Shown here in pieces: positions 12,117 to 64,000 of a DNA stretch of 64,000 nucleotides. The stretch's first letter is position 1. The number at the start of each line of letters is the position of its first letter. The DNA comes from Verpa conica (lineage: Eukaryota > Ascomycota > Pezizomycetes > Pezizales > Morchellaceae). Made by a program: the position numbers and the translations under genes. Location of the stretch: the NCBI GenBank assembly GCA_033030425.1, contig JAUFSD010000003.1, positions 1,426,001 to 1,490,000 on the forward strand, given 5' to 3'. Below the pieces are notes generated by a model. The model was not told the origin of the DNA, did no database searches, and saw only the letters and a program-made list of their open reading frames with translations.

Positions 12117-15100
12117 ATGAAGGTGCGTGCGTGAAGTACAAGCAACCACCAACACATGCCCCAAGTGTAACTCTTACACATGCCTACATCAACGAATTCT
12201 CACCCGTTCCGAACCCCTCACCCTTCCATAGCCTTCTATACTTCCCCTAAACCCGTACTCCTTATTCCGGCTTAGTATCCGGCTTAGTATATACCAACGT
12301 GATGATCTGTGCTGATGTTTTAGCTTAGACTGCATCGCGGGCACGCGACTCTAGAGGCTTCACCTCTAGCCATGGCTCACGACTGTCCATTGACCCCGAT
12401 CATCATGTTACAGAAGCAATAGGAGATATGTATGGCGAATATATAGATGAGGACGGACGACGACAAAGCTATATTCTTCCATCAGACGCATATTCAAATT
12501 CTTCTCGGCCTACTCAGAACAGAAACAGCTCCGTGTTTTCGGCAGCCAGTGCAGGAGGATCAGGAAGAGATTGGGGTAGTGGTGGATCTCGGGGAAACGA
12601 GCTACTACCGGGCTCACCTGCTTTGGTTCACCGATCACCATCCCCGTCACGGTCTCCTAGCGAAACTGCAAACCAATTCTTCCCTCTTCACGACACCGAC
12701 TACGAATCCGATCCCGCTGCTGTAGCTCAGGAAATAAGCAACCTCCAGGCACTTCGCCGGATGTCTATGGACGTCACCTCTACCGCCGATCCCGACCTGC
12801 CGTCGTTCAACTCTTTTGTACCATCTACACCTCCGGAAGATGGCGGTGATCCGGGAAGTGTTTTTTGGGTCCCAGCCCGACTACATCCAGAACTCGCTCC
12901 AAAAGAATTTAGTGCCTACCTTGAAGCCAAAAAAAACGAGATACGGAGGCCCCAACGGGATGGGTCTCTATCGCCGGATGGGGTAAATGCGGGTGGGCCT
13001 GGGCTGAGGAGGAAAAAATCAATGCTATCAAAACAAATAGATCATTCAGATGGTGCAAAAGGGTACCGGGATGGGACGGAGGCTCTGGAGAGGCGGCGAT
13101 CGGGAAAGGAGGGACCACCGCACCTCCAGCTGGAGGATTTGATGAGTGATCCAAATACTCTTATGCGGAAATTGAGTGTTGAGAGAAGAAACGGTGAAGG
13201 TAAAGTTGCCGCGGATCTCTGGGTCCCGGGTGAATTGAATTCTAATAGCTACTTAGGGGACATGCCAATATTACCAGCTCAACCAGCAGGGGCTGGACTT
13301 CGGCGGTCAACTAGAACGACATATAGGAGGGGAAGTCTTCGGAAAGGGGAAAATTTTTCTAAAAGGCAGGCGAAAGCCTCAGAAACCGATACTGAGGATT
13401 ACGCTGCGTCATCCCCCATAACTGGGAGGCCTGGGGGATTGGGGCTGCAAAGGGTATCAACGGAACCTATACCTCCAATACCATCCCATTTCTCTGGCAA
13501 AAGTCAATCAGGTGGGCAGCAGCCCAAGTCGACACGTTCTGCTAATAGAAAAGCACCAGCTGTGGAGTCATCCTCCAGTTCAATTGATGATCTACCTAAC
13601 GCTCCTGAAACGGTACAATCAAGGTCTGCTGCTCCTGTCGAAAATAAACATAAATCGGCACCACCACATAAACAAAAGAAAAGAGCTTCATCACCGAAAG
13701 GCACATCAAGATCCCGGACAAGTGAACCTACACCTCCGGTGCCACGAATTATTGAGACCCCCCCACCATTAGAGGAACCACAAAAGCTGGTACACCCGGA
13801 ACGTCATTCTTCGCTTGATTCTGGCCCACAGCAAACACCCAAATCCTCAAAACAGCCGAGACAAACTATAATAAGGGTGCCTGATGATTCCGCGGTCGAG
13901 CTGGTGAATGAAGTTGTCTCACCGCCAATAGTCCCACCACCACTGGCAGCTCCGGCTATCAGTAACCCCCCAAAGACTAGTCAACTTATGGCCGTGCCAG
14001 GTTCTACTGGAGGAGAGGATGGTAAAGACAAAAAAAGACCAGACTCTTCAGGAAGCACTGGAGAATCTTCAGCGAGAAAATCAAGTTGGGGATGGTTACT
14101 GGGGGATTCAGAACATAAAGCCAAGGATAAGCATGAAAAGGAGAAAGAGGAGAGAAAGGAGAAAGAGGAGAGGGAGAAAAACAAAGTGCGGAAGGAAAGA
14201 CGACCTAAGTCATCAGACAAGTCAACAGAGAAGTCAGCAGAGAAGCATGATAATACTCGACTAGATCTTCTCCAAAAATCAATTGACTTAGGAAATACTG
14301 GGAAGGTGATAACTACCGATGCGGTTGGGGCCAAGACGGATGAAAAGATTGAAAAAGAGTCTCGGAAGTCCCGTGGGGATGAAAAGAAAGAAAAGGAATC
14401 CGGGGGGATTCTTTCGTTTTTTGGAAGCTCGCGGAAGAAGTCTGGAAGTGACAATCCTTCTAAGTCAAAGGGCAGTTCGTCTAGGAATCCGTCTCCAGAT
14501 CCATCGCGTGAACAGCCACACCAGAATTTCTACTATACTCGGTTCCCGATCCATATCGAGCGGGCTATTTATCGACTTTCCCATTTGAAGCTTGCAAACC
14601 CGCGAAGACCTTTACATCAGCAAGTATTACTGAGTAACTTTATGTACTCGTACCTTGCAAAAGTACAACAAACACAACCACATCTAGTGCAGCAGGCCAC
14701 TGTTACACCTAGCCGAGAGGAGCGTCATCGGGAGAAGCAATCTCAGGAGCACCAGAACCAGCAGCACCAGCATCAACATCAGCAAAACCATCAGCAGGTA
14801 GATCCGCAGGGGAACCAGTACTACCAGTACGAGGATGTAAGCTCATAAAACTTTGCTATTAACCTTAATACGATGATGCTATTAGTAAGAGTGTATCCTA
14901 ACTTTATTTTAACTTAGGCCTCTTCAAAAAGTGGAACCGACTATGTGGACGACTCACAGATGTATGAATACGATGATGGTAGTGGGAATGAAAGTGGTAA
15001 TAGTAGACCACAATCACGAGCTTCACGGCGTGATCGACAAGAAAACGGCAACGGCCACTATGATAATTCTGAATCAAATCGGTCAGAATATAATAATGGA

Positions 15101-16652: not shown

Positions 16653-17228
16653 TGTAACAATTTAACCATCGTCATGACTAGTTTTAAGTACCTCTCCATA
16701 TAGAGACACCTAAGGATCTCCCTTGAGGGATAGGACTAGCTATCCTATTCCGGTCAATAGATACTAAGGAAAGTCATTACTATGATAGCCCGATCCCTAA
16801 GCGAGCTGGCAAGCTCCTAGGACGGAGCGAAGCTCACCGTCGTCGGTATGCAACAGAGACCAGAGTAATGCGTCTGTAGCTTATAGTTACGGGAGATACT
16901 AGTGCAATAAGACTGAAGCAGTTGCCTCCATGAACAGAGTTAAGCTCCTGTTCCTCTAGGAGGAATAATGGCATTAATGCTTGATGGCCATGGGAGGCCG
17001 AGAGCCATGAGACGAGAGCAAAGCTATGCTTAGTAGTTAGGGCCGCCAGCAAAAATAATAATTAACCTGGCGGCGTCACGAATCGAACCATACGGGACTA
17101 TGCCTTGTGCTTTGCCCTAAGGTCCTTATGGATCAAGATTACCTCTCCGCCACGTCCCCAGGTTGGACTAGGAACGTGGGAAGGGAATCTAAGCAATGGC
17201 AGGAATCACCAGTGGGTTACTCTACCTA
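16653..17228. repeat. Dispersed repeat, left part of a copy split by the 14.6-kb transposon
   Basis: Collinear, with few differences, to 33111-33683, the right arm of the palindrome. It begins TGTAACAATTTAACCATCGT and runs through shared blocks such as GGATAGGACTAGCTATCC and GGCCGCCAGCAAAA to ...CTCTACCTA, where the transposon starts. The sequence resumes at 31821. It contains a Pol III-like box pair on the minus strand (box B 17089-17079, box A 17152-17142). Confidence 0.9.
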
Positions 17229-17242
17229 CATCAGCAAAAGTT
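17229..17242 (+). repeat. Left terminal inverted repeat of the transposon
   Basis: CATCAGCAAAAGTT, a perfect inverted match to 31807-31820. Similarity continues less strictly inward (TGTGTCTCTGAG on this side, TTGTCTCTAGGA on the other). It is preceded by the TA target duplication at 17227-17228. Confidence 0.95.
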
Positions 17243-17302
17243 TTGTGTCTCTGAGCCATCCACAAAAGCTCCAGGGAGTAACTGGTGTTTGTAGGAGGTC
17301 CT

Positions 17303-17385
17303 GGGACCGTCCGCATATGGTCCCGGTTATCCCTGGGACCGTTCCTATAAGGCTCACATAGTCCCGGATGTCCCAGGGACCACCC
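17303..17385. repeat. Left subterminal GGGACC/GTCCC motif cluster
   Basis: Contains GGGACCGTCCGC at 17303, GGTCCCGG at about 17319, GGGACCGTTCC at about 17335, then further GTCCC and GGGACC copies in both orientations. Subterminal short repeats of this kind bind transposase in CACTA-like elements; here the binding is inferred. Confidence 0.7.
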
Positions 17386-17741
17386 ACGTAATTCCCGAGG
17401 GTTCCTGCGACTTCCCCCGGCGCTGTCACTTGATATATCAGAATACCTGTACCATTTACACTGGCACTTGGAGGTTACTGTAGGCGTCTGGGTTCTTTCA
17501 ATATATATCATACATTCTCACTCGATATTTTGTGCTTAGCAAGCTAATCAATCTCGCTAACTAAATATGTTTGGGAGGAGGATGGTCCGCCTGACAGTCC
17601 ACTGCTAGTACGTGCTAGCCTCCGAAGGTACTGGATGAGCTTGGGGACCCTACGCAGTGTGATAATTGACTGGTGATATATATCCATTCTCTACATTTAT
17701 ATATACATCCTCCAAAATTTGTAGGCCAAGTTCTGCTTCTA

Positions 17742-20700
17742 CTAATATATAGAATAATAAGTATCGATGTCTATATGATTATTTATTAGCCAACCCTTTG
17801 GCTGGCCAGAGGCCTCTTTGCCCTCCCACTCGGGTACTAAATGTACAGCTCCTTCAATACTAGATATTGGCATTACGTATCGGTCCCGTCGGTTCTCTTC
17901 AACTGTAACACAACCATGGTATCGATCTGGTAGTCCGCTCGCTTTACGATATTTAGTACCGATTACCATAGCGAGCTCTACCGGAGAGGGTGAGCGGCTA
18001 TATATAGGTAGTCCACCTTTCTTTGTTTTGAGGATACGCGTGCTGATTCGGTCGGCCGTATTGGGTTCTAGCAATGCCGATATAGGAGGTGTGTAGCTAA
18101 AATAGATTAACGGAATTACTGCTTTGCGTCCTTGAAGTGTATCTTGTGTATGGTCCTCCGTGACTCGCGTCCATATATTGTGTTGAAGCTCGCCCTTACC
18201 CCGCCACATAGGAGTACATCTCAGAAGTTGCTTCTCAACACATAGCGGACTCTGGAATGGCTGGTAGAAGTACGCCACAGAGTTATAAACCTTGATATGG
18301 GTGCGCCGCGGATAGTCTTCATCCTCACCACAGATAGATTTGAAAAGGTCTGCACCCCATTCTTCGACCATTCTATCCTTAAAGCACGAAGCCAAGTCCT
18401 TGATACTGAAGAGGAGCTGAGCTTGAGCCAAGGAAATTGATTTCATTCCTTTGGTTGGTCCAGCTAATCTAGGTCGAGACAAGGAACGTGGGGAGGGTAT
18501 ATAGGGTGTATCTATCGTTGGTACGCGGACGGTGCGCTCTATTATTGGTATGAGGGCGTTGTGCTGTAATTCCTGGATTGCGCGGCGCTTGAGGCGTTTG
18601 GTCCGTGTGTCCTGCTTTTTAACTTCAATTAATTAGTACATATATACAGGCTATAAGCTCAGCCTAAGTAGGGCTCTAACCATCAGGGTGACTAAGTTTT
18701 AATACTCGTGCACTTTCAGCCCCGTAGTAACCCTTTGAAGCAAGGAACTTCAGCGTTTGATCTGTATACGCTAGGCTAAGTTTTCGATCATTCCAAAGGA
18801 GCATTTGCTTCTCGTAGTCCACTCTGTTCGATGCTCGATAGGCTGCTTTCACATTCTCGACATGAAGCAACTCCGAAATATCTGTAGTAAAATTATCCGG
18901 CGAGCCCATGTATCGAATGCAATCAGCAATATGGGTTGGTAGGTGCATTTTGATGAAGGAAAACCCGACGATCCCTAACAAAAGTCTACTACGCGCTCGG
19001 TTGGTCTGGGCCGTGGTCATCGGTCGTCCGGCCTCGGATCGTCTGCGGATCATCTCTCCCAAGGCCCTGTTCACTCGCTTCATCCGGGTAGGCGTCTGAC
19101 GAAATTCTCGGAACACTGATTTTGTCTGATGAAAGGTTACTAATCTCTGATGTAGCCATCGTAATGTTGCTTCCGATAAGCTTCGCTGAGAAGTAATGAT
19201 CATGAACTCACACATTGCGCGTATGCATTTCATAACCTTCACACGGTCCGCGTTCTGTCTGCGCTTCGAACGACTAATCAGGAGTGGTGCTAGGCAAACT
19301 ATCAGAAATCGGAGCATCGTTCTCATTTCTTTGCCCTTCCACTGACTAACATCCTGGTACGCTCTCTTGAAAGGTGAAAATCCAGGGTAATTGGGCATAC
19401 TTTTAAACCGGTGATTGAACCGAGCCAATAAGCCCTCTTTCTTAAGAAAAGCTAGGATCCAACTTATCAGATGCTTGAAAAGCCCAAGCATAAATTGGTG
19501 TAGCCAATCTGGTTGCCATAGCCTATAAGGATTGCATAGGGGATAGTCCCAGAAGTTGTTCTCCACAGGTTCCGCGAAACGCCTACGCAAGTCATTCAGA
19601 CCATCTGTAGACCGTGCGAGTTCTCGGTACTCGTCGACATTTCGCGCATCTCCAGAAATAATGCGGGATTCTCCGCTCTTCAACTCATGGCCTAGCTCTT
19701 CCGGGGGTAGTTCACACATTGGGCAGCTTCCAGACTTGATACGTGCGAGGATAACATGTTCCTGGTAATCTGCAATCCAGGCGGCCAAAATAGGATAACA
19801 GTTTCTGCGTTGCCCATCCGAGCAATGCATTAGAATCCCACGCCCTGATATATCTAATGTACGTAGAGAGTCGAGTACTCGCTGGATAGCACAGTGCCAT
19901 GTGTTATGGATTTCGCCTTTCTCTGGGTTTTTGGGCGGTACTGGGAGGAGAGCAACTAGAATCCAAGCTCTTTTAGATGCCTCTCGGCGGATATCTTTGC
20001 GAATGTTGCCAATGCTCATGTAAAGCGGCCATGCTGATTTATCGCCGGAGAAGTTTGTGAGGTTGGTCTTATCAGACGCGAATAGCACTGGTATGACGGT
20101 GCCACCATCTGGTATTCGCTCCTGAGTTAGAGGACCCACGGTTAGTATGGACTAACTTATAGCGATCCTGATACCATACGTACCTGTGCTCCCCACCACC
20201 AGTCCCCTGTATTGATCTCATTATAGATTCTTTCGCCATTTGAATCATATAGCTTCACAGGAACATAATCAATATCCTCACAGAATGGTAGATGTGATAG
20301 TAAAAGCTGGATGCATTCTAAGATATCCCGTTTGAATAGCTTCCCTCCCCCAATATCTTCCATAGTCCAGCTCTCTGGCCCCACCCCATGCTCACACGAC
20401 TCAAGAAGAGCCCATAAATCGTCTGCGGATTGGAAGCTTCGGCACGTATCGCCGTCAAGTCCACGACTCATATATTCTTGTATCGCTGTCTTCGTGGCAT
20501 TTGAGTCGATAAACCACTTCGCTAGTTCATAGTCTTTTGCGTTCTCGAAGGGCTCCCAAGGATTCCAATCCGCATGTTTATGCTTGGAGTAGATATTTGC
20601 AGTACCATATGTCTTCCCGGCTGAAGCCGGACCGTATATATCCTCAAAGCGCACTGTGCGAGTCGAATCCGCGGTACAGGTAAGATCAGGGTCAACTGGC

Positions 20701-20961
20701 TCAGGAGGATCTGGTGTTGGATCGTTTTCCGGTGCATCTACCCTAAAGTCTCTTGGCTGAACTAAAGCTAAGGTTAGAAAATATCGACAAGGAAATAATC
20801 AATATTGATATACCATCAGGGCTTGGGAATGAGCTGGAAACTGGGGGTGCATTTGATAGTCTAGGTATATTGTAAACGCACGTCGAGATATGTACACTTA
20901 ATCCTCGGGGAGTTCGAAAATGTCTTGCGCAGGAGGGACATATGTTTTTACTGGAATACAT
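17742..20961 (-). CDS. Plavaka-type transposase, apparently intact
   Basis: DDE transposase that would cut and rejoin the element's ends. Exons on the minus strand are 20961-20814, 20761-20184, 20121-18681 and 18622-17742. Their summed length is a multiple of three and gives 1015 aa with no internal stop. The N terminus has a C2HC finger (C8, C11, H24, C28) as in Plavaka proteins. The core has VIPVLFASDKTNLTNFSGDK (D259, candidate first catalytic Asp) and MHCSDGQRRN (D344, candidate second). The helical ISELLHVENVK block near 657-667 offers the late Glu. The third intron has a weak GTTAGA donor, but joining it restores the frame. ATG 21015 gives an 18-aa longer alternative. It is divergent from the cargo genes, with 0.8 kb between. 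Confidence 0.92.
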
Positions 20962-21015
20962 TGTACAATGAAGTTTAGTCGCTGTTTGTTGATACGTTTT
21001 GCCCTCTTGGCTCAC

Positions 21016-21811
21016 TCTGGTATCTATAGGTATGCCATGATGTAGGTAAGCTGTTTTCAGAGTGGCTGGATGATCTTACGCACGGGCCGATATTGAGTCG
21101 TAGCTACGCGGCGTGCAGTAGGAAGGGCGGTGTGAGTAGTCGGGACTGGTCCCGTGTCTCCTGGTGATTCATCTGACGGGCCAAATAACTTATCGCGGAG
21201 TGACTAAATGAAGTGATAAGCATACACGGGTATAGTAAGAGGTTGTGAAATGGTTATTCGGTCTAGCCACTAATTGAATCAGTATTGTGAAGGGGACCTA
21301 CACACTTTAGGCTTGATCAATGATGAATGTAGATAACTGGATGTAGTCAAGAGGAAAAGTATAGGCCTGCTATCCACAGGTGCTTTAGGGAAAGGACGCG
21401 GATGGTCTTGGGACGCGCGCAGACGGTCCGGGACGTTCAGCCCTCACTAGCGCCCTTACCGTATAGGGTAATGTTGGATTTCTGCTTTTTCCCACTGCAT
21501 TTGAGTACACACTAATAAGGAAAAATTGTTAGAAGTCTAACGCATTTGTAGTAGCGTCGGTGCAGCTCTAATGATCTTCGTGTATCATTTCTAGATTATA
21601 ACTTTGTAGGCCTTAAATACGTTGCAAAACAAGGAGCTCATGCGCAAGGGGTAGAAGCACTCCTTGAGCATAGGATCGAGACCTTGAAATACTTACATAC
21701 TTGAATATAGGCCCCCATCTTGTTGAGTATTAAAACGCAGACTCTGCCCGCTTATTGAACTCTATCTCTTTCCACTCCTAATACCTAGAGAACTTTACCT
21801 CACTCTGCGAA
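21016..21811. promoter_or_regulatory. Divergent promoter region between transposase and cargo
   Basis: Separates the minus-strand transposase from the plus-strand cargo. It contains GACGGTCCGGGACG at 21422-21435, a version of the motif repeated in both subterminal zones and again at 29465. A TATTAAAA/TATTGAAC-type AT stretch lies about 80 bases before the ATG at 21812. A shared binding protein for termini and promoter is inferred from the motif. Confidence 0.45.
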
Positions 21812-22560
21812 ATGACTTCCTCTTCTCTCCCATATCACCAATCCTTCGCCTCTTCTACCCCCTTCCATCCATCTTTACCCGAAGGAAGTGAACCCCTGCT
21901 TCCCTCTCCCCTCCAGACCCAGGACCCATATCGAACATCCCCCGGCTACGACGCGCAGGTTCCATCGGGAGAACTTGGAACAGACGTAAACGAGTATGGT
22001 ACCGACCCTATTTTTCAGGGCTCGCCCTCCGTCCTGGCTGCGGGGTCTCAGGCGGGTGCCATAACTGGATCAGGAGCGGGTATCACTCCCGGAGACCTTA
22101 ACGAAGCAATGAACCCAGCAACACCGCATCTGCAACAGGTGGACGTGGGTTTGGTGACCCAGCTTATAGATAAGAGTTATTATAGAAACTATGGGAAAAT
22201 TAAGTTCTTCTGTAAAAGGCCCCCATCCCTTTAGATTAGTCATACAATTGCTAACAATATGGGGGGAAAGGGTTGAGATCATACATGCAGGACAACCACC
22301 CTCCACCAGAACCAAAGCTTGGCCGGGTTTATATCCTCAAGTTCCTTACTCATGCCAGCGGAGGCGTTGGGACAGCGCTGGTAAGGGGGGGGCGATGCTG
22401 TGGTTGGGTGAAGAGGACGCGACGTGGTGTAGGAGCGGCCATGGTAGCTGAGCTACTTAATAGGGGTGTCATCGTCAAGGGCAAGGTCCAGAGTCTTCGC
22501 CAGGCTTCTTTTCAGTCTGAAAGACTTATCATTGGGGAATTGACTTTGTTGGCCCTATAG
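21812..22560 (+). CDS. Transposon cargo protein of unknown function
   Basis: I do not recognise this protein. Exon 1 (21812-22211) encodes a Ser/Pro-rich, low-complexity N terminus ending LIDKSYYRNYGKIKFF. A GTAAAAGG donor and an AAAG acceptor join it to exon 2 (22271-22560). Exon 2 opens WLRSYMQDNHPPPEPKLGR and continues with a basic Gly-rich stretch and MVAELLNRGVIVKGKVQ. The summed frame gives 229 aa. Exon 1 has a good start context and a stop-free frame, but exon 2 could be spliced differently. An open frame at 22589-22804 may be a further exon. It is the first plus-strand gene of the cargo set. Confidence 0.5.
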
Positions 22561-22899
22561 AGTCTCCACTGTACTGCATTATCTACCATTGCCAGTCTCT
22601 GGGGCTGATAATATACTTTTGAGCGGAAGGGGCATATTTCATTTGTTGGGTTTTTTGTCTTGTAGAATTGCTGAGAAAATTTTATACCGTGGTGTTGTTT
22701 CCATTATAAAGACTAGCTTCGCGGCTCACGTTCGAGACGGGTATGGGACTGGGTATGAGGCTGGGTATGCGGACGATGCGAGTAGGATGCACCAGTTACC
22801 CTAAGCCCTAGTTTACATTTTGACGCTTAAATAGGCTAGATTAATCGCGGCAAGGTCCAGAACAGTCTTCCAGCCAACGTCGCCTACTAAACTTCTATC

Positions 22900-24450
22900 A
22901 TGGCTGCTACCTATAAATACGAACCTAAACAGCTGAGATATTTAATTAAGGTCGCTTGTCCTAAAGCTACTAGCCCTCCTCCTCGTACTGGGGCTTTAAA
23001 ACCTCCAAGCACCCCAGTGACGGGCGGTTTAGCAAAATGCGTCGCCAGCGCCCCCGCCACCCCGCAGCTACTTTCCTCAATCCATACCCCTTCATTATCT
23101 TTTATTCCATCGCCTAATCCACCCCCAATAGATGCGCTGCTAAGTCGGGTTCGGGAATTTATCGGCAGTATCGATGCCACGGCTTTGCCTATATTATCTT
23201 CTGCCTCTCAGGAGATGGTGTTGGATGATATCTCGCTCAACGGGTATGAGGCTATTAGGAACATGATCGACGCAGAGGCGCTCCATTCAAACGCGGCCAA
23301 GGTATCTAGGATAAATTATTATGTAGATAGGAGGGTTATCATTACCTTTCCTTCTAGGATCCACGAGGTCATGTGTGAATTCGGTGATCATTACATTATC
23401 GACGAGATGTGGAACCAGGGGTTCTACTGGAGCGGATGGTCTAAAGAAGCTATTAGCCCAGGAAAATCGACAGGTATGTTAAACATTTCCTCATCTTATG
23501 ACTCTTTAGCGCTGATTATTCCCACCTGTAGATGTAAAGCTATGCCTTGAAGAGAGAGAGATTAGATACGTCCCCGATGCCTCGTTGATATTCAAAGGGC
23601 ACACAATGCCATTCCTTGTCTGTGAAGTGGCAGTTTCTCAGAGACTGCCTGATGTCATGAAGAAGAGGGAAGCATACCTCCTTGGCTCTAAAGGCAGGAT
23701 CAAAATTTTCATTATCATCCATATACAGTCCAAGAAGTCGACCAAAGACAGTCCAACAAAACGCCAGCATGATTCCGTACCATCGGTAACAAATAAACGA
23801 GGACGGTCTGACCCCGAACAAGCTTCATGGAGTGGCCAGCGGCATGAGGAAGAGGCTGAAGCCCCAGCACCGGCCACTGGGGTACGGCCTTCGCCCGTCG
23901 CGTCACAGACAGAATCTTCCCCCCCTCATTATGAACGTGGTTCTATATATATTTTTACCAGTAGGCTCAAGGCCTCTTCAGCAGCTGGGGGTCACACCCG
24001 CTCTATTATAAAGTTAGTTGACAATGAGGTTAGTATAGACCCACCATTCACCTACTTCCGCCTAACTATTACTAGGAATTTTGGCCTAAGATACCGGATG
24101 AGGATCTCTTACTTGAGTGGAATAACTTTATTGAGAGCAATATCCAGGATGATTCCAGAAAGAAAACGTTTAAGCTTTCATATACATTCCTACACAAAAA
24201 GATGTTAGATTATCTGAACCCTGAGACACTTGTGGATACTTGGGAGGATGGAGAGGATGTGGAAATAGAGCGGCTGCCACTGAGCGACGAGGAAGAGGGG
24301 GGGGGGGGCAAAGCGGAGGGGAAAGCGGAGGGGAAAGCGGAGGGGAAAGCGAAGGGGGAGGAGGAGGAGGAGGAGGAGGAGGAGGAGGTATCGAGCACTC
24401 CGAGCCCTGAAGATATAAACGATAAAGATTGGGTGGAAGGGGAGGACTAG
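22900..24450 (+). CDS. Transposon cargo protein with PD-(D/E)XK nuclease-like signature
   Basis: Exons 22900-23473, 23532-24028 and 24091-24450 give 476 aa in one frame. After a Pro-rich start there is a folded segment with YYVDRRVIITFPSRIHEVM. Then comes RYVPDASLIFKG...PFLVCEVAVSQ followed by a basic helix (DVMKKREAYLLGS) and IKIFIIIHIQ. P206-D207 and E223-x-A with the following helix and strand fit the spacing of restriction-fold (PD-(D/E)XK) domains in fungal hypothetical proteins, but the usual Lys after Glu is replaced. Nuclease activity is therefore uncertain. The C terminus is low complexity: a GKAE repeat, then Glu-rich, encoded by GGGGAAAGCGGA-type and GGA repeats at 24296-24388. Function is inferred, not shown. 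Confidence 0.72.
24296..24388 (+). repeat. In-frame low-complexity repeats in the cargo gene
   Basis: 12-base units (AAAGCGGAGGGG-type) repeat about four times, followed by a GAG/GGA triplet run. They encode GKAE repeats and an acidic Glu tract. Confidence 0.9.
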
Positions 24451-25188
24451 GGTACGGCTTTTTTTAAGGGTTGTAAATTATGTTTTGCGATTGGTGTAAT
24501 TTAGTTATTTCTTGTGAGTATTTGAGACTCTTTCACCTTGTGAGCCTGTTGGTGGAGTACTTCTAGATGTTTGTTAGTTGGATTATTGGTGGTTAGGCGG
24601 TGTGTATGAGCGTACCGACCGTACGTTGACCCTCCCCAGAACGAAGTTTGGTATAGGCTGACATGTTCGGTCTGCAAGGGTCTATGAAGCTCTATGAAGA
24701 GCAACTAGCTCTGCGCAAACAGATATCACAGCAAGACGTTGGTGGCTATCGGTGATGAGCAGGGTAGCGCGGACCAAACGCGTATGGTCCGGCTTTTACG
24801 TCGATACCATTGCTTGCTTATGACTAATCTGGTTCAACATCCTCGGAATGAGTTCGGCTCGGTAGTGTGCATTGGGCTTAGGCTGCGCTCGGGCCATACG
24901 CATTGATCTAAATCAAGTTTGCTCAAGAATGGCGACTTTGAGCCCTCAACCTCATCAGTTTTGCATTGCTTGCCCCACTACTCCCCCTCCCCCTCCCCCT
25001 CCCCCTCCCCATTCCTTCATTCAACTTGCTGCAGAACCTATTTATACAAAGCTACACGCCCTCTCTTGATCTCAGAGGTTCGAGCTTCACCTCATATCTA
25101 ACCTGACTAGCTTTGTGTTGATTCTGCTTTGGCAGCACACTTCTACTAGATTCTCGACCCCTCCTCCTCTCTCCTCCTCTCTCCTCCG
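24451..25188. other. Intergenic within the transposon
   Basis: Lies between the nuclease-like gene and the SNF2 gene. It contains GCGCGGACC/GGTCCGG motif variants at about 24766-24794 and a CCCCCT run at 24977-25010. No other gene is supported. Confidence 0.5.
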
Positions 25189-28100
25189 ATGCGACGCGCC
25201 AGAAAGGCATCTCATGAGCTGGTGGGCCATAATGAGCTCTTAAGCTCACATCATAGGAAAAGTGGGTTCTCGAAGTCTGAAATCCCAGACTCGAGTGATG
25301 AAACTTTAAGGTAATCCCTGATTCGGTGTTAGCAAAGCTCTTTTAGCAAGCTTTCTGGAGCAGAGATGGCGACAGATCTGACAGATATAACAGTACACCT
25401 TCCGATGAAAGCACACCTACACCCCCCAGACTGCGTCACCACCGCGTACCGCATACGCGTAAGGCTCGAGAGACAAAATACAATCCACCTACGCCCTTCC
25501 GTGAAAACAAACCAAGCAGCCTTTTTTTGAGCCCTGAAGGACCAAACACCAAAGCTTTATGCATCGCAAGGAAGTTAAACTTCCAAGGAGACCAGACCAA
25601 GGACTATACGGATTGGGTTGCAGATTTAAAAGATACGTTTATTACAGTCCGACATCCTGAGATTATCGAGGGGCCAAAGTCGCTACAGGATCGTGGTCGT
25701 CATGATTTGTGGAATGCTGCTATTCAGGACTTGATTAAGGAGGAGCACCGTTTTAACTTGAGGGCGTTCGGCACAAATGATGCAATGGTCCGAGCTGCGC
25801 ATGAATTGCTCAAAAACCAAGCAAAGAAAGTCCGTCTCCGTAAGCCCGTTAAGCCCATTGCCGAAGGTCCAGGAGCCAAGCGAAACCACGAGGTTCTCGA
25901 GGATGAACTGCGGACTGACCAGGCCACGGCGATCTTAGACTTGTCGAAGCTTCCCTCACCCAACTTCACCGTCGCTCTTTGGAGGGAAGGTTTCAAAAAG
26001 CCTTTTCTAAGTCAGATTACCCCACTAGCCGATGTAAAAGACCTCCAAGATTGGGTTTGTACGAAGCTCGGGATCCCTTCTGGTACAGCTAGGATCGAGG
26101 CGATATTTCCTGTTTTAAATGAAGAATACTTTGATATTCTTGGCGTGGCAAAGAGTGGTGATAAAGCCTGCCTAGATGTCTCCGATCAGGCATCATGGAA
26201 CTCAGTGATATCCATGGCCCAACAAGTGGTGAATAATCCCGCCAAATTTGTTGGGCTTCGCCTTGAGGCTCGTGAAAGCACAGTGGAGGAGTTTAGGTTG
26301 CGGTGGAGCGGACGCAAACCGTCCGAGGACGGCCCGGAACCAAAACGATCGAAACTCGTTCTACAGGACACTAAATATAACAAAAGTGGTCATGGTAGTG
26401 ACGACACCAAGCTCGCTCAGCCATCAAAAGAGCACAGTTTCAAAGACCCGGAGGATATTGCCGGTGCATCATCAAAAGAGCACAGTTTCAAAGACCCGGA
26501 GGATATTACCGGTGCATCATCAAAAGAGCACAGTTTCAAAGGCCCGGAGGATATTACCGGTGCATCTATTGAGATGAGGGACGAGGATGAGGGTGAGGGT
26601 GAGGACGAGGACGACCCGGTGGTTGAGGAGGACCAGATGCAGGGGATACTGAGATCCTTTTACGAGGAGGAGGAGGAGGAGGAGAAGGGTGGTGGTAAGG
26701 AAGAGGATGGGAAACCGCTCGTGGATCTCGATATCTTGCTTGGTGATGAGGAGGGAAAGAAGGATAAGTCTGATCAAAGGCACCGGGATGAAAATAACCC
26801 TGGGGGTTTAGGTGAGGGGCAGAGTACTACTAATGAGAACGATTTTTTTGGATTGTGTGTCCACCCACAGTTCAGATAGCGCGTATTATGTCTCTGACAA
26901 AACTTTATTAGGTGTATTCAAAACTACAACAATGATTTTGAGCATCAATGTTTTGACGATGCACTCCGTGGTTTGCGTGCGACAGCACTTGACCTTGTTG
27001 ATACAGACGGTGGAATCCAGCGATTCGGTATTCCCGGCTGCGGTGAAATCAGGTTTTACCCGCATCAAGTTTGGGGGATACAGTTCGTTGTGCAACGGAT
27101 CATTAACGAGGACGGTCTGAATTCGTGTCTAGTGGCGGATGATATGGGTATGGGGAAGGTATGTGTAGATTTGGACTATACCAATTGATTTTATACTGAT
27201 ATATCTAGACATTTGTTGCTCTAGGGGCTCTCCTCCATCTAAAATGGCTTGTCAATGAGGCCAGCGAAGACAATCCTCTCCCTTGTTGCGCAGGCAAGAG
27301 GCCATCTGAAATGCCCAATCATAATTTTTTCAGTCTTCACTTGGGATGGGCAAAACGACCTACAATTATTGTTGTGTAAGACTTCTGTGGGTCTGCATAC
27401 CATTATAGGACCGTTCGCTAATTTCCCTAGGCCGCCTTCACTCCTTATCACATGGTCCCGCACTCTGACAAAGATCCCCGAGCTCACTGTCACCATTTTA
27501 CACAAAAACCAGAATCCGACATCCCGGAGGATTAACAGTGACAGTAAACCTCATTATAAGGTATATCTCACTAGTTACCAAACCTGGAGGTCTCGGTATA
27601 ATGATGCTCTTAAAGGCGCGAGGTTCGGTGTTGGTATATTTGATGAGTCCCACCACGTTAAAAACAGAAAGACCAAGGCTTTCAATTCCTTAATTGGAAT
27701 GGAGTGTAAATACAGGTTACAGCTATCCGGTACGCCCATGCATCATGGGGTTCGTGACTGGGTTGTTCAGGCCCAATGGCTTCACGCAGAATCGAACTCT
27801 GAGCTGCTCACTAAGCATGGCTACGAAGTCATGGAGGCTGCTTGCGATATCGTGAAAAAGAGCAAAGATGCCAGTCCGTCCAGTTACACAGCGATCCGCG
27901 ACTGTGTATACCCATGGACAATCCGTAGGTGGGGCGAAACAACACTGGCTGACGGAAAACCATTGATCAATATCCCAGAGCTGGTTACAGAAAATGTTGT
28001 CATTCATTATACTGAGGAGGAAGCTAAGGCGCTTAGTTTATGGGTGAAAGAAGAAAAGGAGAAGAGTGTACAAAGATACAACTCCGCTCTCCATGGGTGG

Positions 28101-28947
28101 AGATTGGCGTCCTTCTACGGGGACCTTCCGGAGACAGAGCGGGAGATCATAAACGGCAACTCAGTTTTCCGAAAAGAGTGGGATGCATCTACGTTTAAAG
28201 GTTCACCAGTCTTCCGGTGGCTCGAGGATAAGTTGATTCCTCTGCTTAGCGCACGATCTACAGCATCAAAGGCTGAGGAACCGACCCCACACAAGGCCGT
28301 TCTGTTCGCCCCTCTACCAGCCCAAACATATCTGCTGAACTGGGTAAGTAATTGCCCTGTACCCTCCGTGTACCATACAACTACCACCGCCTGATTTCAA
28401 GTTAATATTTTACCAGTGGTTCAAGACTTTCTTCCCCGAAATCGAATGCTACCACTTCAAAGCAACACTCAGTGGTCCAGAGCGATTACAATGTCTCGAA
28501 GCATTCGATGTATCGAAGAAACCTGGCGTTCTAATAATTACCCCGGCCTTAGGTGGTAACGGCATAAACCTTATCTGTGCCGATAATATTGTAATTTTGC
28601 AGAAGTTTTGGAATATGAATGAGCAGAAACAAGCTATAGCTCGCATCCACCGGATTGGGCAGAAACGTAGGGGCTACGCATTCATCCTACATACAGAAGG
28701 TGGCATTGATGATCGCATCACAGAGCTTCAAATGGCAAATGGCCGGTTTGAAGCAAAGATCATGCATGGACTCATGGGCGTGGAGCTCTCATATGAACAA
28801 ATTATGGATATGCGGGCCACAAGACTAGCGGAATTCTTAAAGGTGCAAGCCCGCACTATCCAGGATGGTGAGGGGGACAACGAAAAAGAGCTCGATAAGA
28901 GCACTGAGGGTATGGTGGGTACAGACGCGTACCCTATCTCTGTTTGA
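25189..28947 (+). CDS. SNF2-family ATPase (cargo of the transposon)
   Basis: DNA-translocating SF2/SNF2 ATPase with both RecA-like lobes. Exons 25189-25310, 25361-26854, 26912-27158, 27209-27375, 27431-28343 and 28417-28947 sum to 1157 aa in frame. Residues 1-550 are an unknown N-terminal region with acidic tracts and three 16-aa repeats (SKEHSFKDPEDI). Motif I reads LVADDMGMGKT (about 613-622, usual form DEMGLGKT). Motif Ia is RPTIIVVPPSLL. Motif II is FDESHH (D748). Motif III is LSGTP. The C lobe ends with LGGNGINL and QAIARIHRIGQKR (about 1053-1065), the classic SNF2 motif VI. All catalytic motifs are present, so it is probably active. The domain order resembles Rad5/Rad16-type proteins but I see no RING. 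The first intron's CTGGAG acceptor is unusual. It may remodel chromatin at the target or on the element, by inference only. Confidence 0.9.
26425..26571 (+). repeat. Three 48-base in-frame repeats in the SNF2 gene
   Basis: Three tandem near-identical units, each starting TCAAAAGAGCACAGTTTCAA and encoding SKEHSFKDPEDIAGAS-type peptides. The copies differ at only a few bases, which points to recent expansion. Confidence 0.9.
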
Positions 28948-29447
28948 CTGCGTCTACCATTTTTTATTATTAATACTTTTTTATTGTTTCAACGGGGTTT
29001 TCTTATTCATAGGGAGGGGACTTTCTTAGTTATTGATAAAGGATTTAAAGTATTCTTATAGGGCTTTCTTTGGTATTCATACAGGGCTTTCTTACATAGT
29101 CATATTAATTTATTAGGAAGGTTGGGGGGGGGGGGGTTGGCGCTACTTGTGGTATTCATTTTGGGGTTTGAGGATGGGCTGCACCAGACTTGGTAAATAA
29201 TATTTATACCCGCTTTATTTAACTTATATTTGTACGTATTCTTCCAATCAGGTGGGTTTTCGCTATATATGTTCTGACGCACCGTACGGATCAGACACTT
29301 GACTGCTTTTGATACATGACTCAGATGGGTGAGCGATAGACTATATCAACACGGCTCATGAGCTAGTACCACCTGTCCCTTTCAAACAATAACCCCTTTC
29401 CGCATCATCTTCAGCGCGTTCTAAACTATCCTATATTTTCCGCGGTC
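28948..29447. other. Intergenic within the transposon
   Basis: AT-rich 3' flank of the SNF2 gene with a G homopolymer near 29126-29136, then the promoter of the next cargo gene. No other feature seen. Confidence 0.5.
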
Positions 29448-31178
29448 ATGGTAACAGACGCGTCGGACGGTCCGGGTACCGACTACGAGATCATATATTC
29501 AAGCAAAGCGGACAATCCACGTACGTAATACCCACAATATTCCTAGAAATATAGCTAACGCATAGCTTAGAAGATGGTAGAGCTCGTAGAGGTGTAGGAG
29601 CAAATCACAAATCACACCAAGCAACAAAGAAGGCTCGAATCCCATATGCTAATAGCACAGCATTACAAGGTATACGGACCGCCCGGGGGCGACAAAGTCC
29701 ACCCAACCCCAGGAACTCAACGGGTAAAACACAACATCGAAACCATTCGCATACCTGGGATACAGGTACAAACCACAGGATTAAGGAAGGCCATAATGTA
29801 AAGTACTCTCCCCCTTATACAGAGCTTATTAACGATAGACAGGGGGGGGCGCGTCGGAACAATATCATACTTGAACGTCAAGAACGCGTGGAATCTACAA
29901 GCCGAAAGCGCCAAGGGCCTTCCACAGACGACTTATGGCCTAACAAGCGGACATCTAGAGTAGCACCTTCGAACGGTCCATGTCAAAGCGATAGTGCGTC
30001 CACGTCTACCCCCAGTAATAAAAGTAGAGTCGGCGATAGCGCGTCCACGTCTACCCCCAGTAATAAAAATAGAGCCAGCGAAGTCACTACTACTGAGCTA
30101 TATAACAATACTGAGAATCGTAACATAACTATACCTCGAAGATTTCGCCGCCGCGCAATGATACCACTCGAAAATGTCGGAACGTTTAATCTAGCTAATA
30201 TAATAATCCAGGGCCTTGTTTTTGCTGAGAATCCTTGGCCTAATACAAGGTCTCGTGATATTATGATTAATCAGTCCTGGAAGGATTCAGCTGCGTGCCT
30301 GGCAGATTCTTCAGTTTGCACGATGAGTGAGCTCCCCGATCCTATATCGGCACCAATTGTATGTATCTAACACCAGATTCCCGTACTACACTGTACATTT
30401 GCTGAAAAACGCTTAGCTACAAAAGAGAATATCCAATGTGCGTGGATACCTGGTGGACTCAATTAGGAAGTCGGTGGCAGTTTCTTACAGGCTAAACCTC
30501 CGGAAACCTGAGCAATGCAAAGAGCAGGTGCGAGGCTTACTGAAGGACGATGCATTTACAGGGCAATGGGTGAATGTGGTATCCAGACCAAACGCAGACC
30601 GTATACAGAGAATGGCTACGCTGACAAATATTAGAACGACAAATTAGTTCTAGCATACTTTAGTCACCGGGCGCTACGTACAGCCGTGGTGCATTATTTC
30701 TTTAAGGAAGGAGGCCTGGCTCAGCAGAATGAACTGAGCAAGTATTTTAGTCCCCTTAGGTGGACTACAATCCTAATTACAGCAACGGCAATAGCGTGCG
30801 CGCTTCAAGATTATGAAGAGAGTGGTCATAAGTGCCGTACGGTAACTGAGTTTAGTCAGGATAACTTCTCGAGTAAGACTACCATATACCTGTATAAATC
30901 TAGTGCTCACATACATAGTTGTATATCACAGGTTGCAGAACACAGTTAAAGGGCTTACAGAGGCGCGGCGCTTAAAATTGCTAGACTGGTATAAGAAGAA
31001 GATCAACAAAGAACTCAAGAGCAGGAATCACTCCCCTAAGATACAGACAGAGGGGTACGAGGACCAGATCGGTGATTATTGTGGTGACCTCGGCGACAGC
31101 GATGACGAAGACGAAGACGCGGACGCACACGCAGACGCAGACTCGGACTCGGCCGCAGACTCGGACTCAGCAGACTAA
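29448..31178 (+). CDS. Transposon cargo protein resembling DUF6532
   Basis: Exons 29448-29520, 29571-30358, 30417-30600, 30648-30891 and 30932-31178 sum to 511 aa with phases that fit at every junction. The N-terminal half is basic, polar and disordered, with a duplicated SASTSTPSNK unit. The C-terminal half is helical: GYLVDSIRKSV, CKEQVRGLLKDDAF, LLAYFSHRALRTAVVHYFF, then YFSPLRWTTILITATAIACAL, then FSQDNF. That order, with an aromatic helix before an FSP-x-alpha-rich helix of TAI type, recalls the fungal DUF6532 domain. It ends in an Asp/Ala-rich acidic tail of about 35 aa. No catalytic residues can be proposed. The DUF6532 match is from memory of the family and is tentative; the gene model is firmer. 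Confidence 0.72.
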
Positions 31179-31806
31179 GGGGATGATAACGATGGTAAGG
31201 TCTAAAGCAAGGAGTAGGAGGAAAGAAGGTAAGGTTCAGAAAGTAGTAACGTGGAGGCATTGAGTAGATCTGACGCTATTAGTTTGTGCTGTTATATGGT
31301 TGACAGAGTTAGTAGATAGGGCTAAGTAATGTAGTTGAAGGGTCGAGTGGGTTCTGGTTAGCTACGTCATCCGGGGGGGCCTACCTAGTAAAGGAGGATA
31401 CAGCAGACGTCATGTCTGCTACGTTTTATGTATTATTTTTATGTATTATCGAAACGTATGAGAAGGGAAAGACATAATTCAATATATAGGAGCGATTAGC
31501 AAAACAAGTGTGCCGTGGCATCACATATATGATGCTCATTGGCTGACCGTAGCCCGAGAAATCTGCCGTATAGCTCATCAATAAAAGTATCCAAATATTG
31601 ACTTGGGTCTCATATATACCACATTATACCACAGAACCTCCGGGGACCGTCCCGGGACCGCCCAGGCATACGTAATAATATCCCATGAGTGTCCCAGGAC
31701 ACTCTCTCATTTTCCCCGGGATACCAGGCTGTCTCTCGGGATCGGGTAGTGTCTCGATGATCCCAGCAGCACCAGGGAACCTCTGGTTGTCCTAGAGACA
31801 ATTATT
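31179..31806. other. Right non-coding end of the transposon
   Basis: About 630 bases between the last cargo stop and the terminal repeat. It includes the subterminal cluster with GGGACCGTCCCGGGACCG at 31643-31660 and further GTCCC/GGGAC copies to about 31760. These mirror the left end. Confidence 0.7.
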
Positions 31807-31820
31807 AACTTTTGCTGATG
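31807..31820 (-). repeat. Right terminal inverted repeat of the transposon
   Basis: AACTTTTGCTGATG, the exact reverse complement of 17229-17242. It is followed by TA (31821-31822), then GGGGACTCTGTG, the other half of the interrupted repeat. Confidence 0.95.
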
Positions 31821-31909
31821 TAGGGGACTCTGTGTTTTCTAACACCTGCGAGGCGCCCCACTGTGCCACCCGCCGTTTGCAGAAGGGGCCCCCCTGAGTT
31901 GCAGATTCC
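31821..31909. repeat. Right part of the dispersed repeat split by the transposon
   Basis: Continues the copy that begins at 16653. GGGGACTCTGTGTTTTCTAA and GGCGCCCCACTGTGCCACCC match the right palindrome arm at 33684-33760. Homology ends near 31909, where the palindrome's terminal repeats begin, so this copy is truncated. Confidence 0.85.
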
Positions 31910-31937: not shown

Positions 31938-34340
31938 TGTAACGGGGGTACTCCCAGGGGAGTACTGCCGTACCAAAAAAAACCAACAACCTTCCTTTCT
32001 GACGAGAAGCTTCAGCAGCAAGGCTTAGAACCGCTCGTCAACACGGACGGTCGACAGTCCCTAGGCAAAACAGGAATAAGGATTTAATGAGTCGATAACT
32101 AAAGACTTTAAAAGGCTCTGCTTCCCAGGGGAAAACAAACGTCTTTAGCGGAGAGTATGAGGGTCTCTGAACAACGGTTGTTCGTTGACTAGCAAGAATG
32201 GTTGTCCCGGGGGGGAAGGACGGGTTTAAGCTATGAATTTGACTGCGAGCAGGCTGCCAAGAAGCGGGGAACAATTCCTCCGTGCTTGGAAATCAACTGA
32301 GTCTAGAGCGCCCCTAAGAACTAGCGGGGTCGATAGACTGGCGACTAAAAAGCGTTAGTTACTAAAAGCTCTGTAACTTTTGCTATAATGGTCCGATTTC
32401 AAATCCGATTGCACCTATGGATTCGCAGCACTGTCCCCCATATACCCTCCGAGTTTGGTTCGGTTGGACGAATTTTCCTGACGGTTTTGGGGTTATTTTT
32501 GGGGTCCAAAACTTGTCTTTTTGTTAGGGAATCAGCAACTCAGGGGGCCCCCTCTGCAAACGGCGGGTGGCACAGTGGGGCGCCTCGGGGGTGTTAGAAA
32601 CACAGAGTCCCCTAGGTAGGGTAACCCACTGGTGATTCCTGCCGTTGCTCAGATTCCTTTCCCACGTTCCTAGTCCAACCTGGGGACGTGGCGGAGAGGT
32701 AATCTTGATCCATAAGGACTTTAGGGCGACGCACAAGGCATAGCCCCGTATGGTTCGATTCGTGACGCCGCCAGGTTAATTACTACTTTTGCTGGCGGCC
32801 CTAACTACTAAGCATAGCTTTGCTCTCATCTCACGGCTCTCGGCCTCCCATAAGGTTGGCCATCAGCGAAGCTGTTGTTACTCCTCCTAGAGGAACAGGA
32901 GCTTAACTCTGTTCATGGAGGCAACTGCTTCAGTCTCATTGCACTAGTATCTCCCGTAGCTATAAGCTACAGACGCATTACTCTGGTCTCTGTCGCATAC
33001 CGACGACGGTGAGCTTCACTCCGTCCTAGGTGCTCGCCAGCTCGCTTAGGGATCGGGCTATCATAGTAATGACTTTCCTTAGATTCTATTGACCAGAATA
33101 GGATAGCTATGTGACGATTTAACCATCGTCATGACTAGTCTCAAGTACCTCTCCATGTAGAGACACCTAAGGATCTCCCTTGAGGGATAGGACTAGCTAT
33201 CCTATTCCGGTCAATAGATACTATGGAAAGTCATTACTATGATAGCCCGATCCCTAAGAGAGCTGGCGAGCTCCTAGGACGAAGCGAAGCTCACCGTCGT
33301 CGGTATGCGACAGAGACCAGAGTAATGCGTCTGTAGCTTATAGCTACGGGAGATACTAGTGCAATGAGACTGAAGCAGTTGCCTCCATGAACAGAGTTAA
33401 GCTCCTGTTCCTCTAGGAGGAATAACAACGGCTTCGCTGATGGCCGACTCCATGAGGCCGAGAGCCGAGAAGAGAAAGAAAGCTATGCTTAGTAGTTAGG
33501 GCCGCCAGCAAAAGTAATAATTAACCTGGCGGCGTCACGAATCGAACCATACGGGGCTATGCGCTGTGCTTCGCCTAAAGTCTTATGGATCAAGATTACC
33601 TCTCCGCCACGTCCCAGGTTGACCAGGAACGTGGGAAAGGAATCCAAGCAACGGCAGGGATCGCCAGTGGGTTACCCTACCTAGGGACTCTGTGTTTTCT
33701 AACACCCCCGAGGCGCCCCACTGTGCCACCCGCCGTTTGCAGAGGCCTGAGTTGCTGATTCCCTAACAAAAAGACAAGTTTTGGACCCCAAAAATAACCC
33801 CAAAACCGTCAGGAAAATTCGTCCAACCGAACCAAACTCGGAGTATATGGGGGACAGTGCTGCGAATCCATAGGTGCAATCGGATTTGAAATCGACCATT
33901 TTAGCAATAGTTACAGAGCTTTTAGTAACCAACGCTTTTTAGTCGCTAGTCTATCGAGCCCGCTAGTTCTTATGCGCTCTAGACTCAGTTGATTTCAAGC
34001 GCGGAGGAATTGTTCCCCCGCTCCTTGGCAGCCTGCTCGCAATCAAAATCATAGCTTAAACCCGTCCTTCCCCGTGACAATCATTCTTGCTAGTCAACGA
34101 ACAACCGTTGTTCGAGACCCTCATACTCTTTGCTAAAGACGTTTGTCTTCCTGGGAAGCAGAGCCTTTAAAGTCTTTAGTTATCTATCCATTAAATCCTT
34201 ATTCCTGTTTTGTCTAGGGACTATCGACCTTCCGTGTTGACGAGCGGTTCTAAGCCTTGCTGCTGAAGCTTCTCGTCAGAAAGGAAGGTTGTTGGTTTTT
34301 TTTGGTACGGCAGTACTCCCCTGGGAGTACCCCCGTTACA
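31938..34340. repeat. 2.4-kb imperfect palindrome of two head-to-head dispersed-repeat units
   Basis: The left tip TGTAACGGGGGTACTCC is mirrored by GGAGTACCCCCGTTACA at the right tip. Complementarity continues through both arms of about 1.2 kb. Examples are AACAACCGTTGTTC, GTTTTGGGGTTATTTTTGG and TAAGCATAGCTTTGCTCTC on the left, each with its complement on the right. The arms differ by scattered substitutions and small indels, so they are diverged copies. Near the centre, TGACGATTTAACCATCGTCA (33112-33131) is itself a hairpin. No coding frame extends through an arm. Each arm holds a Pol III-like box pair. It could be a fold-back element or a SINE/LARD-like repeat that inserted head-to-head. 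TG...CA tips recall LTR ends. Confidence 0.88.
32689..32775 (+). other. tRNA-like Pol III box A/box B pair in the left arm
   Basis: TGGCGGAGAGG (32689-32699) fits box A and GGTTCGATTCG (32752-32762) fits box B except its last base. Their 63-base spacing is like that of a long-arm tRNA. GGCGGAG and CGCCGCC could form most of an acceptor stem, but the T stem pairs poorly. It is probably a tRNA-derived SINE head, not a working tRNA. Copies lie on the minus strand at 33609-33538 and 17152-17079. Confidence 0.4.

Positions 34341-61313: not shown

Positions 61314-64000
<2,687 letters not shown>

Follow-up and report, generated by a model that had tools for sequence, protein, structure and literature searches.

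The DNA analysed here is a stretch of 64,000 nucleotides from Verpa conica (the window; JAUFSD010000003.1, positions 1,426,001 to 1,490,000) that belongs to contig 3 of a 45.8-Mb assembly in 25 contigs. It contains a DNA transposon of 14,592 bp, spanning positions 17229–31820, that carries a Plavaka-type transposase gene on the minus strand and four genes on the plus strand: gene 2, gene 3, a gene for an SNF2-family ATPase and a DUF6532 gene. The features of the element and of its target repeat are as follows (window positions).

17227–17228: TA target-site duplication, left
17229–17242, plus strand: left terminal inverted repeat, CATCAGCAAAAGTT
17243–17678: left subterminal region with CCNGGGAC repeats
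17742–20961, minus strand: Plavaka transposase, 1020 aa, four-exon model (20961–20814, 20767–20175, 20121–18681, 18622–17742)
21812–22560, plus strand: gene 2, about 203 aa, three-exon model, no Pfam match; exon 3 recurs in copies B, C, D and E (see below)
22900–24450, plus strand: gene 3, no Pfam match, exon borders approximate, holds PD-x(n)-EVAVSQ
25189–28947, plus strand: SNF2-family ATPase; its N-terminal region matches no family, and the protein includes an acidic linker
26422–26565, plus strand: three 48-bp tandem repeats in the linker of the SNF2 gene
29449–31178, plus strand: DUF6532 gene, conserved exons 30116–30358, 30417–30600, 30648–30872 and 30919–31178, 5' end uncertain
31371–31806: right subterminal region with CCNGGGAC repeats
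31807–31820, minus strand: right terminal inverted repeat
31821–31822: TA target-site duplication, right
32528–33109, minus strand: target repeat without interruption (empty site), in the first palindrome arm
33107–33762, plus strand: target repeat without interruption (empty site), in the second palindrome arm

Both 14-bp inverted ends are exact, and they are the sole two matches within the window at up to two mismatches, a setting at which the chance mean is 0.68 end matches and at least 2 matches occur in 16 of 100 shuffles. The target-site duplication is the dinucleotide TA, with the third base mismatched. The flanks, rejoined with one TA, match window positions 33107–33762 at 90.2% and, inverted, positions 33109–32528 at 92.7%, straight through the junction in both cases. 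Because this empty site is uninterrupted in both palindrome arms, the element must have been inserted into a third copy of the repeat. An earlier note on this DNA had proposed a 14.6-kb element bounded by terminal repeats and TA duplications, with flanks that rejoin into the repeat of the palindrome and thereby fix the boundaries, and all of this holds. The palindrome is long and imperfect (31938–34340), each arm measuring about 1.2 kb, and the element inserted into a third copy of part of such an arm. The target repeat had a tRNA-like appearance by eye; this was rejected, with 0 tRNA genes and 0 Rfam matches found there. Many repeats and palindromes surround the element.

The transposase matches the family PF18759 in two exon pieces, with E-values of 2.9e-56 and 7.6e-13 (191.5 and 48.8 bits; cut-off 26.3), and the four-exon model reads through without internal stops. 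Across 20 aligned Plavaka sequences chosen by hand (one from the window, 18 of the 88 proteins found, and one from another locus), there is no variation at D102, C133-x2-C136, H393 and E417 and almost none at D17 and H397; all these, with the spacing H393-x3-H397, are positions of the aligned segment. The Plavaka/CMCT clade is described in the main text of PMC12730594 by a motif of two D, C(2)C, H(3–4)H and then E, and this pattern (D, D, C(2)C, H(3)H, E) is present in the transposase of the element. From the order of the residues, we infer that the aligned D and E are catalytic. Published PlavakaB elements have ends CATCA..TGATG and target duplications of 2 or 3 bp (Kojima 2025, main text of PMC12730594), and ends of this type, 5'-CATCA..TGATG-3', together with a 2-bp duplication are found in all four full-length copies of the element. 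These ends do not match the TGT..ACA of PlavakaA, and the CAC..GTG ends and 3-bp duplication of EnSpm/CACTA elements are likewise not those seen here. The assignment of the element as a large multi-gene member of the Plavaka cut-and-paste DNA transposons, of the PlavakaB type by its ends, is well supported on these comparisons. Relatives of the transposase reach at most 48% identity overall, the best named one, from Morchella sextelata, being 30% identical; two other Plavaka families of this genome are 56% and 61% identical to one from Morchella. Judged by such named relatives, in Morchella and, for SNF2, in Tuber, the host is probably a Pezizomycete; a search for the mating-type alpha box came back empty for this genome and for the controls alike, and the HET domain had 5 matches.

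Whole-genome protein searches revealed three full-length copies besides the element in the window (copy A): B (C9:708906–723266; 14,361 bp), C (C9:899750–914122; 14,373 bp) and D (C10:1741410–1755827; 14,418 bp). The gene order is identical in all four, with the transposase on one strand and gene 2, gene 3, SNF2 and DUF6532 on the other. Copies B, C and D have the ends CATCAGCAAAAAGT..ATTTTTTGCTGATG, which differ from the 14-mer of A at two positions per end, and 2-bp duplications of their own, AA in B, TG in C and CT in D. Over the aligned length, A is 65.4–65.8% identical to B, C and D, which are 96.4–98.4% identical to one another, and the near-identity of these three points to a recent spread. 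The intact-looking Plavaka-type transposase and the four plus-strand genes of the earlier note, including SNF2, are confirmed, the SNF2 gene being joined with an upstream frame of 510 aa, and the accessory genes recur together as a set. The note had suggested a genome search with both exact ends and a check for TA duplications. The exact 14-mer occurs at 34 sites (16 in forward and 18 in reverse orientation; the pattern written backwards occurs once), but the other full copies lack it and were found through their proteins; a 2-bp duplication is present in every full copy, but it is TA only in A. Of the 34 sites, 18 were inspected, and several of these are other sequence families that have only the first end bases in common with the element. 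Short sequences at loci L063, L065 and L069 begin with the same CATCAGCAAAAG and diverge just inside (GTTTTTTT or GTACTTTT); at L063, four ends of the CATCAGCAAAAG type lie inside 0.5 kb, each adjoining TA.

The ends of the full copies also contain a subterminal repeat. CCNGGGAC occurs four times in the left 450 bp and four times in the right 450 bp of A, with 0 in the inner 13.7 kb, and the counts for ends and interior are 16 and 1 in B and 16 and 2 in each of C and D, compared with about 0.1 in shuffled ends. Subterminal repeats are the usual binding sites in CACTA-like elements.

Incomplete copies were found as well. Copy E, on C22, retains genes 2 and 3, and over the left-most 1.1 kb it matches B at 95.8% identity, although a search for the exact end string gave nothing; the 5.5 kb beyond the break contain no element match, with SNF2 and DUF6532 absent there. 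Copy F, on C9, consists of fragments of the transposase and of the N-terminal part of SNF2. Shorter derivatives with similar ends measure 2,709 bp on C1 (duplication TT), 887 bp on C7 (AA) and 966 bp on C25 (no clear duplication). A stretch of about 4.7 kb on C1 has kept the final exon of the transposase and the final part of the DUF6532 gene; the flanks of its ends are mismatched, and that the two ends belong together is a guess. Several ends and deletion derivatives, of this and of related Plavaka families, are gathered over some 70 kb at C1:1107–1176k.

Close relatives of the accessory genes were found in these copies. The SNF2 query returned 14 rows in the whole genome, of which six, at four places (A–D), show 51–100% identity and lie inside elements, whereas the other eight show 24–32%; no close SNF2 relative was found outside A–D. 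All rows for the SNF2 N-terminal query (8/8) fall in A–D and fragment F, those for gene 2 (5/5) and gene 3 (5/5) in A–E, and those for the DUF6532 N-terminal query (4/4) in A–D. The earlier note had named two findings that would speak against cargo carried by the element. Cargo genes at unrelated loci were not seen, as close relatives of SNF2 and of genes 2 and 3 were not found outside elements or fragments. Termini without the cargo do occur in part: the short derivatives have similar ends and little coding content, and similar ends are also found on ordinary Plavaka elements that lack SNF2.

The DUF6532 gene matches its family at 36.1 bits in the window (cut-off 24), and the model from copy B does so with an E-value of 2.1e-21. 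A Plavaka family search gave 35 rows that were merged by hand into 19 loci, and 15 DUF6532 loci were listed, a list that is incomplete in that the remnant in the 4.7-kb stretch on C1 lies outside it. At 14 of these 15 loci, a Plavaka transposase is encoded on the opposite strand at a distance of 5.0–11.1 kb, the unpaired locus being C11:234725; with a 15-kb criterion for pairing the binomial probability is 3e-26, which shows just that chance is out. DUF6532 is missing from the neighbourhood of five Plavaka loci: C6, C4:1008k, the two broken copies E and F, and a locus at the end of a contig. Candidate elements of 8.8–9.2 kb were read at three ordinary Plavaka loci (C21, C9:862–871k and C1:1001–1011k). 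They have CATCAGC ends, in which 11, 14 and 12 of the 14 bases pair, and 2-bp flanks that match. Besides a transposase and DUF6532, they contain a middle gene in which no similarity to any gene of A was detected. This middle gene is unannotated and has a conserved VVLHR stretch.

Because 14 of the 15 loci are paired, DUF6532 appears to be a general companion of Plavaka in this genome and not a special cargo. It is probably the standing second Plavaka protein, and the near-constant pairing suggests a partner of the transposase. The comparison points to a common plan, in which transposase and DUF6532 occupy opposite ends and to which SNF2 and genes 2 and 3 would be special additions of the A-type family. 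The earlier note had counted all four plus-strand genes as cargo, which stands for SNF2 and genes 2 and 3 but not for DUF6532. PMC8955403 lists DUF6532 and Plavaka side by side as additional domains in two species of Ganoderma. The linkage of DUF6532 to Plavaka provides a functional hypothesis for that domain.

The SNF2 gene contains the domains SNF2-rel_dom (PF00176; E-value 7.6e-14) and Helicase_C (PF00271; 5.8e-10), both above cut-off. Its introns were placed at about 25311–25363 (the least certain), 26855–26911, 27159–27208, 27376–27430 and 28344–28416, and the model contains GMGKT, DESH and HRIGQ, which we take to be nucleotide-binding and DExH-type motifs. The long frame at 25347–26879 (510 aa) was considered as a separate gene and rejected, as splice sites conserved between A and B connect this frame with the SNF2 exons. 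A PDB profile search with the N-terminal region gave one match, with an E-value of 1.1. The idea that this region is the fused middle protein of ordinary Plavaka elements was dropped: profile comparison returned a probability of 0.2% twice, and BLAST nothing better than an E-value of 0.4. In a search for relatives in which the 7989 candidates sharing most words were scored, 12 proteins at 38–43% identity form a clade with the SNF2 protein, after which the scores fall from 452 to 72 bits. Two of the 12 are from Tuber aestivum; they are 43% and 40% identical to the SNF2 protein of the element and 87% identical to each other, and their position on differently sized contigs is consistent with a mobile gene. 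An NCBIfam scan of four SNF2 relatives gave matches far below the curated cut-offs and nothing else, and scans of viral contigs gave one weak SNF2 match and 0 transposases. TET/JBP gave no match in the 10 open reading frame pieces and four gene models scanned, which cover part of the 152 stop-to-stop frames, and tyrosine recombinases gave none among the pieces and models scanned. In gene 3, PD..EVAVSQ occurs in A as well as in the frames of C, D and E, and is a possible PD-(D/E)XK nuclease motif.

Comparison of the diverged copies indicates that all five genes have been kept as coding genes under purifying selection while the lineages diverged. The approximate ratios of nonsynonymous to synonymous divergence (dN/dS) for A vs B and A vs D are 0.15 and 0.14 for the transposase, 0.20 and 0.20 for gene 2, 0.29 and 0.30 for gene 3, 0.19 and 0.21 for SNF2, and 0.21 and 0.21 for the conserved exons of DUF6532, with 0.13–0.14 for the ATPase part of SNF2 alone. 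The out-of-frame control for A vs B gave 0.84–1.59.

Copies B, C and D are near-identical, save for scattered small differences, outside three tracts (coordinates of A). B departs from C and D over about 18130–19830, in the transposase, and about 25530–26330, in the N-terminal part of SNF2, and D departs from B and C over about 27650–28850, in the ATPase. Identity in the tracts is roughly 80–90%, with a synonymous divergence of 0.31–0.47 and dN/dS of 0.13–0.26. In the first tract, E sides with C and D and not with B (rows left of about 18629 lie beyond the piece of E used and are unreliable). Repeat-induced point mutation was rejected as the origin of the tracts because the direction of mutation is balanced, C>T/G>A against the reverse being 77/74, 32/32 and 53/54. 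Most simply, the tracts would stem from gene conversion or recombination involving a lineage that is unrepresented among the full copies. Mosaic exchange between diverged transposon lineages is seen in these copies.

Parts of this organization are known from other elements. En/Spm (CACTA) has two genes, TnpA and TnpD, that provide a transposase and a second protein, and inverted ends with subterminal repeats. The two-protein plan is similar to that seen here, with DUF6532 as a possible counterpart of TnpA in role. Starships are large cargo-carrying fungal elements with a tyrosine-recombinase captain; the element described here is likewise large and bears cargo, but has a DDE-type transposase and 14-bp inverted repeats instead. 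The PlavakaB elements of Agaricomycotina, as given in the main text of PMC12730594, agree with it in ends, duplication and transposase and in the presence of an accessory gene in some families. The accessory gene of those families is TET/JBP, thought to counter silencing, whereas the element of the window has SNF2 and two small genes; SNF2 is absent from that main text. The giant Plavaka repeats of Amoebidium (main text of PMC11244446, from which SNF2 and helicase are absent) are also large gene-rich units tied to a Plavaka transposase, but reach 50 kb and hold tandem intron-poor genes, many encoding tyrosine recombinases. Enlarged EnSpm/CACTA elements of Chondrus crispus, as cited in PMC6431247, are of similar size (16–20 kb) with extra open reading frames (4–5 in all), but belong to a red alga and to EnSpm rather than Plavaka. 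No report of Plavaka together with SNF2, or of Kyakuja together with SNF2, was found in the literature searched, which lay outside most subscription papers and supplements. Within that literature, a Plavaka element that carries SNF2 is apparently new, whereas Plavaka and CACTA elements with accessory genes are already known in part; the view of the earlier note that a cargo-rich Plavaka is undescribed therefore holds for SNF2 and is tempered by these partial precedents.

An SNF2-bearing Plavaka element is established by its ends, its duplication, the empty site, four copies with the same gene order and purifying selection on five genes. We consider it rather probable that the whole is a PlavakaB-type element in which the SNF2 protein serves the element through chromatin and DUF6532 acts as a helper. 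The DDE transposase, helped by the DUF6532 protein, would recognise the inverted ends and the subterminal CCNGGGAC repeats and move the element, with DUF6532 perhaps acting as a DNA-binding partner in the manner of TnpA of En/Spm. The SNF2 ATPase probably helps the element in chromatin, where it would most likely remodel a silenced donor or the target, such that the genes of the element would be expressed and its ends would be able to pair; the two small genes, of which gene 3 is possibly nuclease-like, may assist. Opening of silenced DNA is favoured because some PlavakaB relatives carry TET/JBP with that proposed role (main text of PMC12730594), and SNF2 would fill the niche proposed for these dioxygenases in other fungal transposons. 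A more specific version, in which Plavaka is a two-component system of transposase and DUF6532 and this family added an SNF2 module with two small partners to overcome silencing, is put forward tentatively.

Several points weigh against this reading. The roles of the proteins, and the function of SNF2 in particular, are drawn from their sequences. CCNGGGAC was chosen post hoc from words enriched at the ends of A and B, and the pairings of DUF6532 with Plavaka include related copies and are not independent. The nuclease reading of gene 3 received no support from family scans, a PDB profile search (0 matches) or a protein search (0 of 361 candidates). The synonymous divergence of A from B or D is 1.0–1.5, near saturation, which makes the dN/dS estimates approximate. 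Projection of the A models onto the other copies shows frame differences or stops in the transposase of B, C and D, gene 2 of C, gene 3 of B and C, and SNF2 and DUF6532 of B, C and D; some of these are faults of the splice models, and some may be damage or sequencing error.

Ordinary Plavaka elements of this genome do without SNF2. The three loci read have no matches to SNF2 and gene 2, yet have similar ends and 2-bp duplications, and these genes are therefore not needed by Plavaka in general. This suits a rather improbable alternative in which transposase and DUF6532 suffice for transposition and SNF2 is a host-benefit or neutral passenger that the element captured, as Starships capture their cargo. 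Speaking against a passenger are the lack of a close host version of SNF2 among the genome matches listed, purifying selection over a synonymous divergence of about 1–1.5, and an order that is fixed in all four full copies. A serious rival, though still an unlikely one, holds that SNF2 acts after excision, as a Rad5/Rad54-like translocase that aids gap repair or homology-directed copying, and not against silencing. The nearest solved relatives by profile are indeed RAD5 (6.3e-31) and a RAD54-like protein (2.3e-28), and the conversion-like tracts in the mosaics of B, C and D attest to recombination between copies. Sequence ranking is, however, weak on function, as ISWI, CHD1 and DDM1 come next and the best single-sequence match is Fft3, of the Fun30 type (1.7e-10), and the mosaic tracts require just host recombination; the rankings are compatible with both repair and remodelling. 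A third alternative, a nested assembly of unrelated elements and genes whose matching ends arose by coincidence or are those of a small element that has taken in others, would agree with surroundings rich in repeats and palindromes and with the occurrence of the 14-mer in other short sequence families. It is contradicted by three more 14.4-kb copies with the same content and their own 2-bp duplications, as well as by an empty site that fits the junction, and is highly improbable.

If SNF2 serves the element in chromatin as favoured above, the TET/JBP enzymes borne by transposons would have a counterpart in a DNA transposon encoding a chromatin remodeller, and element-driven anti-silencing in fungi would become testable with a defined gene.

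Outside the element, the window contains genes for a Zds_C protein (12428–14845), a piece of a thiamine-pyrophosphate enzyme (56119–56673) and a PBD protein kinase (61981–63396), all three of which are assigned as host genes.

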